A DNA stretch of 64,000 nucleotides from Chitinophagaceae bacterium (GTDB lineage Bacteria; Bacteroidota; Bacteroidia; Chitinophagales; Chitinophagaceae), in assembly GCA_022841365.1 (NCBI GenBank), contig JALHRP010000001.1, forward strand, positions 77,445 through 141,444, in the 5' to 3' direction. Shown here piece by piece: positions 41,225 to 47,489 of the stretch; the stretch's first letter is position 1; every line of letters starts with the position of its first letter. A program made the position numbers and the translations under genes. The notes under the pieces are model-generated. The model searched no databases. It was not told the DNA's origin and saw only the letters and a program-made list of their open reading frames with translations.

Positions 41225-44200
41225 ATGACAACGGGTAATTTGATATATGAAGGTCCGGAATTTCTGATCTATAAAGAAACACTTGATGACTTTCCTGTGC
41301 CCGTTGTTATTAAACAAATAAAAAGTAAAGACGCCTCTACGGAGTTATTGCTGCAATTAAAAAACGAGTTTGAGCAAACACATGAACTCACGTTGAGTGG
41401 TGTAAGAAAAGCAATCCGGCTTCAACAGATCAATGGTGCACCCTCCCTGTTGCTGGAGTATGTAGATGGAATTACTTTAAAGGAAGCTTTTTTATTAAGA
41501 GACCGGAGCGTGGCCGAATTTTTAAAAGTAGCGATACAGATTGCACGCTATACCGGAGAAATTCATCAGCACCAGATCATACATAAAGACTTAAACAGTA
41601 AAAACATACTGGTAAGTAATGATCTAAGTAAAGTAACGCTGATAGACTTTGGTATTTCAACAAAATTCAACCTCAAGTCCGATTACTCCATTAACCCCGA
41701 ACGGTTAGAAGGATCACTTGCCTACATGTCGCCCGAACAAACAGGCCGCATGAACAGGGCCATTGATTCAAGAAGTGATTTGTATTCGCTGGGCATTATT
41801 TTTTATGAACTGGCAACCGGCCGCCTTCCGTTTGAAGCATCTGACCCTATTGAATATATTCATTGTCATATTGCACGTAAGCCCATACCGCCATCACAGA
41901 TTGATTCGGGCATACCGGAAGTGTTGTCGAATCTCATTATGAAACTGCTGGAGAAAAATGCAGAAAACAGATACCAATCGGGCTTTGGTATTAAGCATGA
42001 TCTTGAAATAATTCTGAAACAGCTGGAAACAACCGGCAAAACAGAAACATTTCAACTGGCACAAAATGATTTTACCGGCAGGTTTATCATTTCACAAAAA
42101 TTATATGGGAGAGAAAAGGAGTTTGAATTTTTACTGGAAACTTTTCGCAAATCAATAAAAGGAGAATTGCAAACGGCCATTGTGTGCGGTTATTCAGGTG
42201 TAGGAAAATCTTCAATCATACATGAAATGCACCGGCCTGTAACAGAAGCACAGGGCTATTTTCTCGAAGGCAAATTCGGTCAGTATCAACGCAACATACC
42301 GTATCAGGCATTTATACAGGCCTTTACTTCTTTTGTAAAACACTTTTTAACAAAAGATAATTATCAGCTCATTGAATGGAAACATAATCTGAAACAAACG
42401 TTGGGCGAAAATTTATCACTGTTACTTTCGCTCATCCCCGATCTTGGGTTGTTACTTGGTGAAGAACAGCCACAGCAAACCAGCCACTCATTTGAATCGC
42501 AAAGCCGGTTTAATTACAGTATCATTCAGTTTATAAAAGTGATTGCAGCAAAAGAAACCCCTGTTGTTCTTTTTCTGGATGATATGCAATGGTCTGATCT
42601 GGCTTCGCTTGATTTACTGAAAGAAATATTAACCGACAGCTCCATCAAATACGTAACCATTGTGCTTGCTTACAGAGACAATGAAGTTACTTCTGAACAT
42701 CCGCTGAGTGTTACACTCAATGAAGTAAAAGAATACAATTCCCATATCAGGCAAATAAGACTAAAGGGATTAACTGTACCCGATGTATCAATGCTGTTAA
42801 GTGATACATTAAATGAACCGGAGCAAAAGATTCAACGACTTGCAGATGTTGTATTTAAAAAAACGGATGGTAATCCGTTTTTTATGAATGAGTTTTTGAA
42901 GTCGTTGAATGCAAAAGACCTGATCTGGTGGGATGCAGCTTCAAGTAAATGGCTGTGGCACGAGGAGCAAATTGAGGAAATGAGTGTTACGGAAAATGTG
43001 ATTCACTTTCTTACTCAAAAAGTTCGCCGCTTCCCTGCAAATACCTTGAAAATTCTGCAGTATGCATCCTGTATAGGAATGAAATTTTCCGTACAAACGC
43101 TGGCTGGAGTTATGCATTTAAACGGAGAAGAGATTGTAAGCATTCTTTATCAGGCAATAAAAGAAGGATATATTATTCCTTCTTCCATCGTAAAAAAAGA
43201 TGTGGCAGAAGATAAGGAACGGGTACTTTTTTTCAGTGAGGCAAAATTTGCACATGACCGTTTTCTGCAGGCTGTTTATTCCATGTTGAGCGAAGAAGAG
43301 CGCAACCGCATTCATTATACCATTGGACTATGGATGCTGAATACAAATGAAAAAGAGTCTGATGTATTTGAGCTGGTGAATCATCTCAATGAGGGCCGGA
43401 CATTGATTTCTACTGCACAGGAAAAAAAACAATTGTGTGAGTTAAATTTTGATGCCGGTAAAAAAGCTAAGAAAGCCAGTGCATATGAATCGGCTTTACA
43501 CTATTATCAGAAAGCAGCTTCGTTACTGCCTACGGATGCATGGGAAAACAATTTTGAATTTGCTTTTCAGTTATCCTTATCCCGTGCAGAAGCAGAGTAT
43601 CTCAATCTCCATGCAAATGAAGCCGATCAGTTGTTTGATGGTTTGCTGGTAAAGGCCCGCAATAAAATGGAAAAAGGGTTGGTGTACGAACGAAAATTAT
43701 CGCTGGCAGTTGCTTTGGGAAAATATACAGAAGCGCTTGAACTGGCGCACACTGCATTAAACCTGTTTAATATCAGGCTGCCTAAAACAAAAGCAGGGAA
43801 AATTTTATCCATCTTAAAGAATGTGATGTTAATGAAATGGCGGTTCAGAAATATTGAACCAGGTGATTTACTGAACCTGCCCGAAATTAAAAATGAAAAA
43901 GAACAGCTTGTTACAAGGATATTCAGTCTTGCTATTTCTCCCGTTTATTTCTCTAACGATTTTGAAGCATACTTCGCCACTTTTCTTTCATTGGTGAATT
44001 ATACAATTAAACGGGGTAACTCCATTGCATCGCCACACATTTTTGTAACCTATGCAATCATTGAGAATGTTTTCTTTCAGCATTATCAACGTGCCTTTGC
44101 AATAGGTAAAGTTTGTCTTGAACTGAACCAACGTAATTTTTCACCGCAGGTTCGTGGGCAGTTGACATCCAATCTGGCCGGCGGTATTTATCATTGGGTG

Positions 44201-46375
44201 ATGCCTTTGCGTGAAACCTTTCATGAATTTTATACGGGCTATAAGTATTCATTAGAAGCAGGTGATTATAATTATCTCGCCATTAATATCAATCAGCATA
44301 TTGCTACACAGATAAGATCCGGCAGAAATCTCAAACTCATTCTCGATGAGTTTGGCGGATACCGAACCTGGGTTGAAAAACCAAATGATCCGAAAATGGT
44401 TTGGGAGTTTAATCTCTATACGTTTTGTATGAGAGAACTCATGGGAAAAACAGAACAGGCAGAAGTGGATGTTTTTGAAGAAGCTTTTGTAAAAGAAAAT
44501 CAACCCATAAAATTTAACCTCGGGTATTTTTATACTGCAAGAAGCAAGTTCTATCTGTTTATGAATGAACCTGCAAAGGCGCTGAAGATGGCAGAAGAAG
44601 CCCTATCCGTACTTCGGTTTTTGCAGGCAACTCCAAGCCATGCCGATGCTGTTTTTTATTACTGTATGGCAGGTATTTCCAACTTCACTTCCTTTTCGCC
44701 CATTAAAAAACGATTGTTCAAACGTAAGTTGAATAATCATTTGAAGCAGTTTGAACGATGGGAAAAATTATGTCCGCAGAATTTTTCGGCCCAGCGTCTG
44801 TTGATCTGTGCAGGTATTGCAAAAACAGAATCAGATATCACAGCTGCAATTGATTTTTGTCAGAAAGCGGTACAATCTGCAAGAGACAATCAGTTTACAC
44901 AATTAGAAGCGTATGGAAATGAACTGCTTGGAGCAATTTGTTCAGACAATAATCTGAAGAACGATGCAGATCAGTATCTGCAAAAAGCAATTGTATTATA
45001 TGCAAGATGGGGCGCAACAGCTAAAGTAGCACAGCTAAAAAAACAAAATCCTGCGTTAAAAGATATTGAAGTTAAAGATACTGTATCTATGACGTTTAGC
45101 GGTGAAATAACCATTCAGGATTCGGTGAACATCAACAGTCAGAATATAGATCTGGCCTCAATAATGAAAGCATCAACCGCCATTGCAGGCGAAGTGAAGT
45201 TTGATCAGCTGTTGAATAAAATGATGAAGATTCTTGTTGAAAACGCCGGTGCTCAGGAGGGATATGTGTTGCTTGAAAAAGACGATCAGATATTATATAA
45301 ACCGCCTCAAAATCAAAATGACAATGAAGTAAAACTCATCATTGGTATCCCCGATGAAGAGAATGAACTGTTGCCTGTTTCTGTTGTGCAATATGTGTAC
45401 AGAACAAAAGAAGAGGTGGTGCTGGAGGAAGCATATAATGATGTTCGCTTTGCTAAAGATGCGTATATGCAGAAAAAGAAACCACTATCGGTTTTATGTA
45501 TGCCCATCCTGCACCAGGGAAATTTTACAGGAATACTTTATCTGGAAAACAATGTAGCTGTGGGTGTATTTAATCAGCAACGTTTAAATCTTCTGCGGTT
45601 GCTATCGGGGCAAATTGCTGTTTCAATTAACAACTCACTGCTGTATGAAAACCTGGAACAAAAAGTAATTGACAGAACTGAACAGGTGGTACAACAAAAA
45701 AATGTAATTGAACAGGAAAAACTTGTTTCAGAAAAACTGCTGCTTAATATTCTGCCGGCTGAAACAGCGTTTGAATTAAAACAAACAGGTAAGGCACAAC
45801 CAAAGCGCTACGAACATGTAACTGTGATGTTTACCGACTTTGTTGAGTTTACTAAAATAAGCAACATCACTCCTGCCGATGAACTGGTGAATGATATTGA
45901 TTATTACTTCCGTGAGTTTGATGAAATTATCAGCAAATACAAGATTGAAAAAATAAAAACCATCGGCGACAGTTATATGTGTGTGTCCGGTTTGCCCGTC
46001 ACCAATCAATCACATGCGGTTGATATGATTGAAGCGGCCTTGCAGATCATTGCATTTATTAATCGAACAAAGGTTGAAAGGATACAACAGCGTAAATCGT
46101 ATTTCGATATCCGCATTGGTATTAATACAGGGCCCGTAGTTGCAGGAGTGGTAGGGTCAAAGAAATTTGCTTATGATATATGGGGCGATACAGTAAATAT
46201 TGCAGCACGTTTACAGCAAACATCTGAACCCGGCCGGATTAATATTTCTCCATCTACTTATGAACAGGCGAAGGAAAAATTCAGGTTTACGGCACGTGGA
46301 AAAATCAGCATAAAAAATAAAGGTGAACTGGATATGTATTTTGCAGATTCTTTGAATGCAACAGAGACTGCCTGA
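41225..46375 (+). CDS. Protein kinase - AAA ATPase - TPR - GAF - adenylate cyclase
   Basis: A 1716-residue signalling protein. The kinase domain (about 5-275) has Lys30 (VVIK), His120-Lys-Asp122 in HKDLNSKN, and Asp141 in DFG, followed by GSLAYMSPEQ, so it should be active. An AAA_16-type ATPase has Walker A GYSGVGKS (322-329) and Walker B FLDDMQWSD. A long helical TPR-like region runs to about 1290, then a GAF domain (about 1313-1465), a coiled linker and a class III cyclase domain (from about 1530). Metal-binding Asp1538 and Asp1582, Lys1578 and Asp1651 (the pair that selects ATP) and Asn1658/Arg1662 point to cAMP, not cGMP. It starts 13 bp after the putative terpene cyclase gene. Confidence 0.92.
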   Translation: MTTGNLIYEGPEFLIYKETLDDFPVPVVIKQIKSKDASTELLLQLKNEFEQTHELTLSGVRKAIRLQQINGAPSLLLEYVDGITLKEAFLLRDRSVAEFLKVAIQIARYTGEIHQHQIIHKDLNSKNILVSNDLSKVTLIDFGISTKFNLKSDYSINPERLEGSLAYMSPEQTGRMNRAIDSRSDLYSLGIIFYELATGRLPFEASDPIEYIHCHIARKPIPPSQIDSGIPEVLSNLIMKLLEKNAENRYQSGFGIKHDLEIILKQLETTGKTETFQLAQNDFTGRFIISQKLYGREKEFEFLLETFRKSIKGELQTAIVCGYSGVGKSSIIHEMHRPVTEAQGYFLEGKFGQYQRNIPYQAFIQAFTSFVKHFLTKDNYQLIEWKHNLKQTLGENLSLLLSLIPDLGLLLGEEQPQQTSHSFESQSRFNYSIIQFIKVIAAKETPVVLFLDDMQWSDLASLDLLKEILTDSSIKYVTIVLAYRDNEVTSEHPLSVTLNEVKEYNSHIRQIRLKGLTVPDVSMLLSDTLNEPEQKIQRLADVVFKKTDGNPFFMNEFLKSLNAKDLIWWDAASSKWLWHEEQIEEMSVTENVIHFLTQKVRRFPANTLKILQYASCIGMKFSVQTLAGVMHLNGEEIVSILYQAIKEGYIIPSSIVKKDVAEDKERVLFFSEAKFAHDRFLQAVYSMLSEEERNRIHYTIGLWMLNTNEKESDVFELVNHLNEGRTLISTAQEKKQLCELNFDAGKKAKKASAYESALHYYQKAASLLPTDAWENNFEFAFQLSLSRAEAEYLNLHANEADQLFDGLLVKARNKMEKGLVYERKLSLAVALGKYTEALELAHTALNLFNIRLPKTKAGKILSILKNVMLMKWRFRNIEPGDLLNLPEIKNEKEQLVTRIFSLAISPVYFSNDFEAYFATFLSLVNYTIKRGNSIASPHIFVTYAIIENVFFQHYQRAFAIGKVCLELNQRNFSPQVRGQLTSNLAGGIYHWVMPLRETFHEFYTGYKYSLEAGDYNYLAININQHIATQIRSGRNLKLILDEFGGYRTWVEKPNDPKMVWEFNLYTFCMRELMGKTEQAEVDVFEEAFVKENQPIKFNLGYFYTARSKFYLFMNEPAKALKMAEEALSVLRFLQATPSHADAVFYYCMAGISNFTSFSPIKKRLFKRKLNNHLKQFERWEKLCPQNFSAQRLLICAGIAKTESDITAAIDFCQKAVQSARDNQFTQLEAYGNELLGAICSDNNLKNDADQYLQKAIVLYARWGATAKVAQLKKQNPALKDIEVKDTVSMTFSGEITIQDSVNINSQNIDLASIMKASTAIAGEVKFDQLLNKMMKILVENAGAQEGYVLLEKDDQILYKPPQNQNDNEVKLIIGIPDEENELLPVSVVQYVYRTKEEVVLEEAYNDVRFAKDAYMQKKKPLSVLCMPILHQGNFTGILYLENNVAVGVFNQQRLNLLRLLSGQIAVSINNSLLYENLEQKVIDRTEQVVQQKNVIEQEKLVSEKLLLNILPAETAFELKQTGKAQPKRYEHVTVMFTDFVEFTKISNITPADELVNDIDYYFREFDEIISKYKIEKIKTIGDSYMCVSGLPVTNQSHAVDMIEAALQIIAFINRTKVERIQQRKSYFDIRIGINTGPVVAGVVGSKKFAYDIWGDTVNIAARLQQTSEPGRINISPSTYEQAKEKFRFTARGKISIKNKGELDMYFADSLNATETA

Positions 46376-46408
46376 AAAAAAGGGGCCCTTTGTAAAAAAC
46401 AAAAGGCC
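46375..46408 (-). terminator. Rho-independent terminator of the minus-strand tRNA-like unit
   Basis: On the minus strand GGCCTTTTGT (46408-46399) pairs with ACAAAGGGCC (46393-46384), one G-U only, and is followed by CC and seven T (46381-46375). The plus strand has no T-tract here, so the terminator serves the minus strand. Its T-run overlaps the last base of the kinase-cyclase stop codon. Confidence 0.85.
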
Positions 46409-46429
46409 AGTAGAAAAGCATGAGAAAAG

Positions 46430-46601
46430 CTGTAGGGGGAGGGATCGAACCTCCACGGAGCAGTTAGTTGCAGCACAAAGTTCGGTGGTCGACCCCGGTC
46501 GAGTGGTTATTGCTAACCAAACGGCTCTATGCTGTATTTATCCTGTTATCTCCACCCCCGAGACGAGAGGGCATGTCTGCCTAAAATTTCATCACCCCAC
46601 A
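46430..46601 (-). ncRNA. tRNA-like RNA with giant variable arm, copy A
   Basis: A 172-nt RNA with all arms of a type II tRNA. Acceptor TGTGGGG pairs over 7 bp with CCCTACA and a G discriminator follows. The D arm is ATG/CAT with a Leu-like loop AAATTTTAGGCAGA, the anticodon-like arm is CCCTC, TCGTCTC, GGGGG, and the T arm is GGAGG, TTCGATC, CCTCC (T54T55C56 pattern). Between anticodon and T arms is a 97-nt variable arm (46553-46457) closed by GGAG/CTCC, with inner stems CAGCA/TGCTG, GGTTA-GCAA-TAACC and CGAC-CGGG-GTCG. CCA is not encoded. Loop position 33 is C, so a normal decoding role is doubtful. A promoter-like TATTCTTTT lies just upstream. Confidence 0.7.
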
Positions 46602-46696
46602 GTGTAAAAGAATAAAACACAAAATCCATTGTCCAAAATCCAATAACCAAAAACATTACTTGTATTTTGATTATTGTGATTTGGTTTTTATTTGAG

Positions 46697-46867
46697 CTGT
46701 AGAGGGAGGGATCGAACCTCCACGGAGCAGTTAGTTGCAGCACAAAGTTCGGTGGTCGACCCCGGTCGAGTGATTATTGCTAACCAATCGGCTCTATGCT
46801 GTATTTATCCTGTTATCTCCACCCCCGAGACGAGAGGGCATGTCTGCCAAGATTTCATCACTCCACA
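46697..46867 (-). ncRNA. tRNA-like RNA with giant variable arm, copy B
   Basis: A 171-nt near-copy of the RNA at 46430-46601. The acceptor is TGTGGAG / CTCTACA: the A-U pair here replaces a G-C pair in copy A, so both strands of the stem changed together. The D-loop is one base shorter (AAATCTTGGCAGA), and a variable-arm hairpin changes GGTTA/TAACC to GGTTA/TAATC, keeping pairing as G-U. The anticodon-like, T-arm and 97-nt variable-arm sequences are otherwise the same. The gene is upstream of copy A on the minus strand and has its own promoter-like boxes. Total differences are only about seven bases. Confidence 0.7.
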
Positions 46868-46877
46868 GTATGTTGTT

Positions 46878-46910
46878 CAAAGAACATGTACAGTGCAATA
46901 TTAAGACAAA
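46878..46910 (-). promoter_or_regulatory. Possible promoter of tRNA-like copy B
   Basis: On the minus strand TTTG (46910-46907) and GTTCTTTG (46885-46878) are spaced 21 bp apart, like the -33 TTTG and -7 TAnnTTTG boxes, although the leading TA is not kept. Transcription would start about 6-8 nt later, a few bases before the acceptor stem at 46867. Copy A has TATTCTTTT at the equivalent place. Confidence 0.4.
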
Positions 46911-47012
46911 CAACCTGTTTGTTGTATAATTTTCAATAAAAATTTATAAAATTTCGAATTATTCTAAAAATAATTACTTAATATTGAAAAATAACAAAAA
47001 ACCGTTTAGTAA

Positions 47013-47489
47013 ATGGCTGTAAAATTAAATCTTGACAAACTGGATCTTCAGATCATTTCTGAAATGATGGAAGACGCACAGATTTCTTATGCCGATCTGG
47101 GTAAAAAACTCTTTGTATCGGGCGGTACCATTCATGTGCGCATTAAAAAATTACAGGAGCATGGTATTGTGATTGGCACCAGACTAAATGTAGATTTAAA
47201 AACATTGGGTTACGACATTACAGCTTTTGTTGGAATTTATCTGGAAAAAAGTTCGTTGTACGATACAGTGGCAAAGGATCTGCGCAAGATTCCTGAAATT
47301 GTGCGTTTAAATTATACAACCGGAAACTACAGTATGTTTATAGAAGTGGTATGTAAAGACATTAACCAGCTTCGGTATGTATTACATGATGCGCTTCAGA
47401 AAATTAAAGGCATTGAACGTACAGAAACGTTTATTTCATTAGATGAAAGTTTTAACCGCAATGTGCAGGTTGTACAAAACCCTGCTTAA
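47013..47489 (+). CDS. Lrp/AsnC family transcriptional regulator
   Basis: A 158-residue regulator. The helix-turn-helix (about 8-55) reads LDLQIISEMMEDAQISYADL, then SGGTIHVRIKKLQEHGIV; the RAM ligand-binding domain (about 65-150) contains DITAFVGIYLEK and GIERTETFISL. Lrp/AsnC proteins bind DNA as oligomers of dimers and respond to amino acids. The AT-rich stretch before the gene (46940-47000) and the palindrome after it are candidate autoregulatory sites. Ligand unknown. Confidence 0.9.
   Translation: MAVKLNLDKLDLQIISEMMEDAQISYADLGKKLFVSGGTIHVRIKKLQEHGIVIGTRLNVDLKTLGYDITAFVGIYLEKSSLYDTVAKDLRKIPEIVRLNYTTGNYSMFIEVVCKDINQLRYVLHDALQKIKGIERTETFISLDESFNRNVQVVQNPA

Follow-up and report, generated by a model that had tools for sequence, protein, structure and literature searches.

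A large family of tRNA-shaped RNAs has been overlooked in many Bacteroidota and in some viruses; it has no match in Rfam 15, and no paper describing it by title or abstract was found in the open-licence literature. Judged by its conserved bases, the family keeps the AspRS determinant set while G1-C72 gives way to U1-A72, the pair required by GatCAB. It is considered moderately probable that tRNA-dependent asparagine synthesis uses this RNA as a dedicated carrier that does not decode, on which aspartate would be loaded and then amidated. This proposal is supported by a covarying structure, near-invariant determinants, linkage to an AsnC homologue and co-occurrence with GatB in genomes that have AsnRS and mostly GlnRS.

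The window, that is, the whole stretch of 64,000 nucleotides that was analyzed, comes from a Chitinophagaceae bacterium. A sequence-only reading of it had noticed a near-identical tandem pair of tRNA-like units on the minus strand; the pair is borne out, with 96% identity over 161 nt and a spacing of 267 nt. The features of the region are as follows.

46384..46408, minus strand: intrinsic terminator-like site 3' of copy 2 (10-bp stem, then a T run)
46429..46602, minus strand: tRNA-like RNA copy 2, from position -1 to C74 (sequence reading and covariance model match)
46560..46566, minus strand: anticodon-like loop UCGUCUC of copy 2, with GUC at 46564-46562
46696..46868, minus strand: tRNA-like RNA copy 1, from position -1 to C74 (sequence reading and covariance model match)
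46705..46721, minus strand: T arm of copy 1, loop TTCGATC
46722..46821, minus strand: long variable arm of copy 1, about 100 nt, with covarying stems
46827..46833, minus strand: anticodon-like loop UCGUCUC (positions 32-38) of copy 1, with GUC at 46831-46829
46869..47012, no strand: divergent intergenic region between the RNA and the AsnC-type gene
47013..47489, plus strand: AsnC-type regulator of the Lrp/AsnC kind, divergent from the RNA (best solved structure E. coli AsnC, 2cg4, E 3.1e-32)

In copy 1, U1 lies at 46867, G73 at 46697 and C74 at 46696, and the 7-bp acceptor pairs 46867-46861 with 46704-46698; in copy 2, U1 is at 46601 and G73 at 46430. Each unit has a tRNA-Leu-like D arm, a 5-bp anticodon arm (CCCTC/GGGGG) with the 7-nt loop UCGUCUC, and a T arm directly abutting the acceptor, all as first described and confirmed on reading the sequence. 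The oversized variable arm, earlier given as 97 nt, was found again at about 100 nt. Six terminator-like sites were counted on both strands of the region against 0.6 expected in shuffles, and the site at 46384..46408 is the only one of them on the minus strand. An open reading frame of 1716 amino acids (41225-46375) ends at this site and by eye reads like a fusion of protein kinase, ATPase and adenylate cyclase.

Standard tRNA models miss the class, as had been suspected. ARAGORN reported no tRNA and no tmRNA across the window, Rfam 15 gave no match within it at the gathering threshold, and a scan of the region at E<=10 listed no tRNA family. Among full-length members, ARAGORN found 0 of 133; with the variable arm swapped for a short loop, it called 106 of the 133 tRNA-Asp(gtc) and one tRNA-Glu(ctc), and left 26 without a call. 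Two known classes were rejected: tmRNA by the empty ARAGORN result for the window, and tRNA-Sec by the triplet, which is GUC and not UCA. The minimum-energy fold of one copy forms local hairpins instead of the D stem, and its z-score of -2.09 is weak, 10 of 200 shuffles folding equally well. Comparison across genomes was therefore needed.

The sequence-only reading had proposed a covariance-model search of Bacteroidota; this was run, and homologues with covarying stems do exist in other genomes. The model was built from 27 sequences, namely the two copies of the window and 25 relatives. In the main covariation alignment, which was fitted to the structure and holds 133 members (132 distinct), 97.1% of 4682 cells are paired. 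Double changes occupy 697 cells, where shuffles give 182 and slid controls 60-95, and none of 500 shuffles reaches 697; they are seen in 32 of 44 pairs, and the D-stem pair 10-25 has changed on both sides in 48 of the 132. An earlier alignment of 27 sequences, made without structure, was 99.6% paired, with 61 double-change cells against 18. The weak spots are the third anticodon-stem pair, unpaired in 27/132, and the distal stems, which are gapped in many members. The RNA is thus a cloverleaf with acceptor, D, anticodon and T arms, and its tRNA register rests on covariation and not on folding energy. An 8-bp acceptor with a -1:73 pair was rejected, since this pairing is impossible in 20/132. 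The variable arm is the most variable part and is dispensable for the class: matches range from 112 to 203 nt, and a probable relative has no long arm. It is accessory; its role may be to prevent ribosome binding or to contact a partner.

Within the same family of bacteria, a DNA search found relatives, some of them partial, in 135 of 195 genomes. Of the 149 genomes of the order, 69 contain members scoring at least 77 bits, as do 31 of the 296 in a phylum sample. Matches of 25-59 bits, mostly 75-90 nt long, had been dropped from these counts as ordinary tRNAs; 12 further genomes of the order and 61 of the phylum sample had no other kind of match. Since the number of candidates that the search scored in each genome was capped, calls of absence are soft, and in one genome scored negative (G126) a copy is cut by the contig end. 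A second model was run on 34 GatB-positive genomes scored without the RNA and on six GatB-negative controls; among the matches listed there were only hits of 80-90 nt. The best of those listed is an 80-nt relative in genome G392 (L270 1503-1579, minus strand), which is armless, 77-80 nt long, and has the loop CUAUCUC, U1-A72 and G73; a terminator-like hairpin and a T run follow it, its triplet is AUC, and ARAGORN calls it tRNA-Asp.

Two to four copies per genome are common, often in tandem. At one locus, a larger duplicated segment contains, next to an intact copy, two degenerate repeats of the half that carries the variable arm (L049 978-1045 and 1296-1363, minus strand); these arm-only matches were rejected as members, being degenerate duplicates. 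A scan with a sequence pattern gave at least 80 named loci, and among the matches listed are Chitinophaga, Mucilaginibacter, Pedobacter, Dyadobacter, Algoriphagus, Cyclobacterium, Fulvivirga and Neolewinella, as well as one MAG named Ignavibacteriales. The same scan gave at least 19 viral contigs, and the covariance model matched a member in each of 19. By ARAGORN, 17 of these 19 viral stretches hold other tRNA genes and 13 hold three or more, the maximum being 21 other tRNAs and a tmRNA call; tRNA-Asp(gtc) is also present in five of the 19 viral loci listed. The plasmids searched for the family gave no match, and the annotated phage records gave one, in a 636-kb uncultured phage.

Other tRNA-like elements were met in the course of these searches. 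A second family occurs in viral contigs, within tRNA clusters where these were looked at, in at least 120 stretches (loci L315-L394; L203 7680-7831, L206 4906-5052, L212 3169-3301, L213 5267-5413 and L214 7476-7600). Its near-fixed frame consists of the acceptor TAGTCAG, a Leu-like D arm, a T arm and CTGACTAC, and a hypervariable insert of 40-70 nt, of which 86 were read, replaces the anticodon arm. Seven of ten places checked reach the Rfam tRNA gathering score (38.1-40.4 bits), and the family gives the impression of a tRNA scaffold whose cargo changes. At another locus (L267, G000:C3:79094-79552), three tRNA-like repeats, which have T arms but changed 5' halves, come after a tRNA-Met gene, with an intervening run of N.

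The conserved bases of the long-armed family are concentrated at few sites. Three acceptor pairs are near-invariant, U1-A72 in 131/132, G2-C71 in 132/132 and U3-A70 in 130/132, while pairs 4-7 covary; G73 and C74 are found in all 132. The sequence pattern behind part of the members fixed G34, U35, C36 and C38, and these positions were therefore counted on 64 distinct members from other searches. In this pattern-free set, G34 is present in 63 members and U35, C36 and C38 in all 64, with U1 and A72 likewise in 64/64 and G73 and C74 again invariant. Position 34 is C in one member (L077) and A in the armless relative (L270); in the genus shared by G480 and G392, two genomes without GlnRS, this base is C or A and not G. 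The 12 commonest D loops listed read GGCAG(A/C), which leaves no base 20a by the tRNA-Leu-aligned numbering used here (G18 G19 C20 A21).

These sites can be compared with what is described for aspartate. A review names G73, G34, U35, C36 and C38 as strong aspartate determinants, states that bacterial tRNA-Asp conserves G1-C72 and G2-C71, and reports that U1-A72 is required for Asp-tRNAAsn to be amidated, a reaction that G1-C72 and U20a block (PMC9976931). In the genome of the window, among 37 tRNA genes called by ARAGORN, only tRNA-Asn and tRNA-Gln share U1-A72 with the RNA, and tRNA-Asp has G1-C72; 34 of the 37 lack an encoded CCA and end in N73-C74 as the RNA does. The pair G1-C72 helps E. 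coli AspRS to position the acceptor end, so charging by AspRS may be weaker with U1-A72 in its place. The sequence-only reading had named an aminoacyl donor for a non-ribosomal reaction among its options, and had remarked that G73 and the long arm would suit seryl charging. An aminoacyl carrier is kept as possible; seryl charging is unsupported, as the conserved set consists of the aspartate determinants plus U1-A72 and the neighbor is an AsnC homologue. Both seryl and leucyl identities were ruled out because the anticodon loop is conserved as in tRNA-Asp and base 73 is G.

The same reading had doubted normal decoding, and the RNA is indeed unlikely to decode, since positions 33 and 37 break the decoding rules. 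Position 37 is U in 118, C in 10 and G in 4 of 132, never A. Position 33 is U in 47, C in 10, A in 6 and G in 1 of the 64 pattern-free members; the C33 remarked on earlier is thus true of the window's copies and is no rule of the family. The family as a whole does not keep the canonical elongator features, U33 and a purine at 37.

An AsnC homologue stands divergent from the RNA in 83 of 127 cellular loci, where the 126 loci besides the window correspond to 121 distinct first RNAs and some loci are counted twice via two routes. None of the 83 has the other orientation, and the aligned AsnC segment lies 121-261 bp from the RNA. The homologue was not seen in 44/127 loci, six of which have less than 250 bp of upstream sequence; sequence clusters and inspection by eye gave no obvious common neighbor for the AsnC-less loci except within one family. 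Against the NCBIfam AsnC model the window's neighbor scores 160 bits (next model 66), which is below the 227-bit cut-off of that model, and a second neighbor scores 163 (next 75); per-model scores were seen for these two only of 19 aligned neighbors. All 19 match the AsnC model and keep the YTTGxYS segment of the E. coli protein, but at E<=1e-5 six general Lrp-type models match them as well.

In E. coli, AsnC tunes asnA to the asparagine level, and the two genes, asnC and asnA, point away from each other across a gap of 151 bp. Four of the ten AsnA loci were inspected (L249-L252, about 1.5 kb on each side), and in none of these four was AsnC found beside AsnA. Of 75 distinct intergenic regions, 20 contain the palindrome TTGAAATATTTGCAA with no more than one mismatch, where a shuffled set gives 0.05, although it was chosen after viewing the same regions, many of which come from related species. 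The intergenic region of the window (46869..47012) holds only a weak match to it, with four mismatches, at 46922-46936.

GatB accompanies the RNA closely. It was matched in 67 of 69 genomes of the order with the RNA and in 49 of 80 without (Fisher 2.9e-8, a value that overstates independence because the genomes are related); by genus the figures are 42/43 and 23/39. Five matches lie below the family cut-off, one in a genome with the RNA (G297) and four in genomes without, and over the cut-off alone the counts are 66 and 45. In the phylum sample, up to the same class, GatB is present in 29/29 genomes with the RNA, and four GatB-positive genomes are without it; among the matches listed, 20/20 GatB-negative genomes of the class lack the RNA, 23 further GatB-negative ones being left out of this count. 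Beyond this class, genomes that have GatB but not the RNA are common.

AsnRS was found in all 44 genomes tested and GlnRS in 36, including 30 of 35 with the RNA; GatCAB is therefore dispensable in these genomes for Asn-tRNA and, in most of them, for Gln-tRNA, and needs another substrate. The 49 genomes of the order that have GatB without the RNA lie outside the GlnRS test set, and three GatB-positive genomes without the RNA from outside the order (G362, G392 and G328) lack GlnRS. By its table and text, an earlier survey gave 12 of 14 Bacteroidetes GlnRS and no gatCAB (PMC3927822), and another account (PMC4206432) counts Bacteroidetes with the genera that have AsnRS, GlnRS and GatCAB yet lack an Asn synthetase. 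In the order, AsnB over its cut-off is present in 56/69 genomes with the RNA and 68/80 without (p 0.66; 124/149 overall), and AsnA in four with and six without (p 0.75; 10/149 overall). With no anticorrelation, the RNA as a plain substitute for the Asn synthetases was rejected; as neither enzyme is depleted and the window's genome has AsnB, the RNA is not the only route to asparagine. E. coli, too, keeps asnB besides asnA.

A scheme can be proposed from these observations. The RNA would be processed like a tRNA and receive CCA, after which AspRS would load aspartate through G34-U35-C36-C38 and G73. GatCAB would then amidate Asp-RNA to Asn-RNA, a step suggested by U1-A72 and the missing base 20a. 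Asn-RNA would be kept out of translation, since the family does not retain U33 and a purine at 37 and most members also have the long arm; its asparagine would be hydrolyzed off or handed on. Through the divergent AsnC homologue, the RNA may be tuned to the asparagine level, as asnA is by AsnC in E. coli. More tentatively, it is put forward that a bacterial lineage and viruses use a non-decoding RNA cofactor for the conversion of Asp to Asn, under AsnC control in cells, with an RNA standing where asparagine synthetase A would be.

The alternative that survives best, although it is rather unlikely, is an uncharged decoy, an AsnC-tuned sponge that binds and holds back AspRS, GatCAB, both, or another reader of tRNA-Asp. 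The same conserved contact sites could serve binding alone, two to four copies, several in tandem, suit titration, and the AsnC linkage suits regulation; yet the fully conserved G73 and C74, with 3' ends like those of tRNA genes, point to an acceptor end that is used, and a sponge for AspRS only would neither need U1-A72 nor predict the near-constant presence of GatB. Less likely still is a donor of Asp or Asn for a non-ribosomal transfer, such as lipid, envelope or peptide modification, comparable to the glycine tRNAs that staphylococci keep outside protein synthesis. A loop that does not decode beside retained acceptor determinants would fit such a donor, and GatCAB could make the donated residue, but sequence clusters and inspection by eye recognized no transferase as a recurring neighbor: AsnC stands at 82 loci in this first clustering, and the next families at 14 or fewer. 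That a structured small RNA merely resembles a tRNA, for stability or as an antisense scaffold, would agree with the large, variable arm and the terminator-like site of its own; it is quite improbable, given that invariance is centered on the AspRS and GatCAB contact sites while the stems covary, and that the arm varies most and can be absent. Least credible is a tRNA decoding Asp codons under unusual conditions, for despite the GUC anticodon and the U33 of most members, the bases at 37 and the four different bases at 33 speak against it, a normal tRNA-Asp(gtc) exists in the window's genome and in the five viral loci, and U1-A72 with GatCAB would put Asn at Asp codons.

The proposed asparagine carrier can be set beside known systems. 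It shares with tRNA-Asp(GUC) the cloverleaf, G34, U35, C36, C38, G73 and G2-C71, and differs in U1-A72 instead of G1-C72, in a base 37 other than A, in the long variable arm and in the Leu-like D arm. Like tRNA-Asn and tRNA-Gln, the GatCAB substrates of the two-step routes to Asn-tRNA and Gln-tRNA, it has U1-A72 and no 20a, co-occurs with GatB and carries the G73 of this genome's tRNA-Asn, but its anticodon is that of Asp, in a non-decoding loop; a discriminating AspRS could therefore charge it. As tRNA-Asn here has U1-A72, a non-discriminating AspRS could supply GatCAB even where the RNA is lacking. In the tRNA-dependent asparagine route of Bdellovibrio, Deinococcus and Thermus, GatCAB is likewise kept beside AsnRS and GlnRS, but a non-discriminating AspRS charges tRNA-Asn, whereas a dedicated RNA is proposed here (PMC4206432). 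As in the asnC-asnA pair of E. coli, AsnC is divergent at about 150 bp; its partner, however, is an RNA gene and not asparagine synthetase A. The non-proteogenic tRNA-Gly of staphylococci is tRNA-shaped, charged, and decodes weakly or not at all; the present RNA differs in its amino acid, its type II arm and its linkage to AsnC and GatCAB.

If the proposal is true, it would describe a new route of amino-acid synthesis that runs on an RNA of its own, and would explain why GatCAB is kept by many Bacteroidota that own AsnRS and GlnRS. The family occurs in cultured genera (Chitinophaga, Pedobacter, Mucilaginibacter, Dyadobacter and Algoriphagus) and is thus directly testable. An RNA gene would join amino-acid biosynthesis, and the tRNA fold would have been freed from decoding for use in metabolism.
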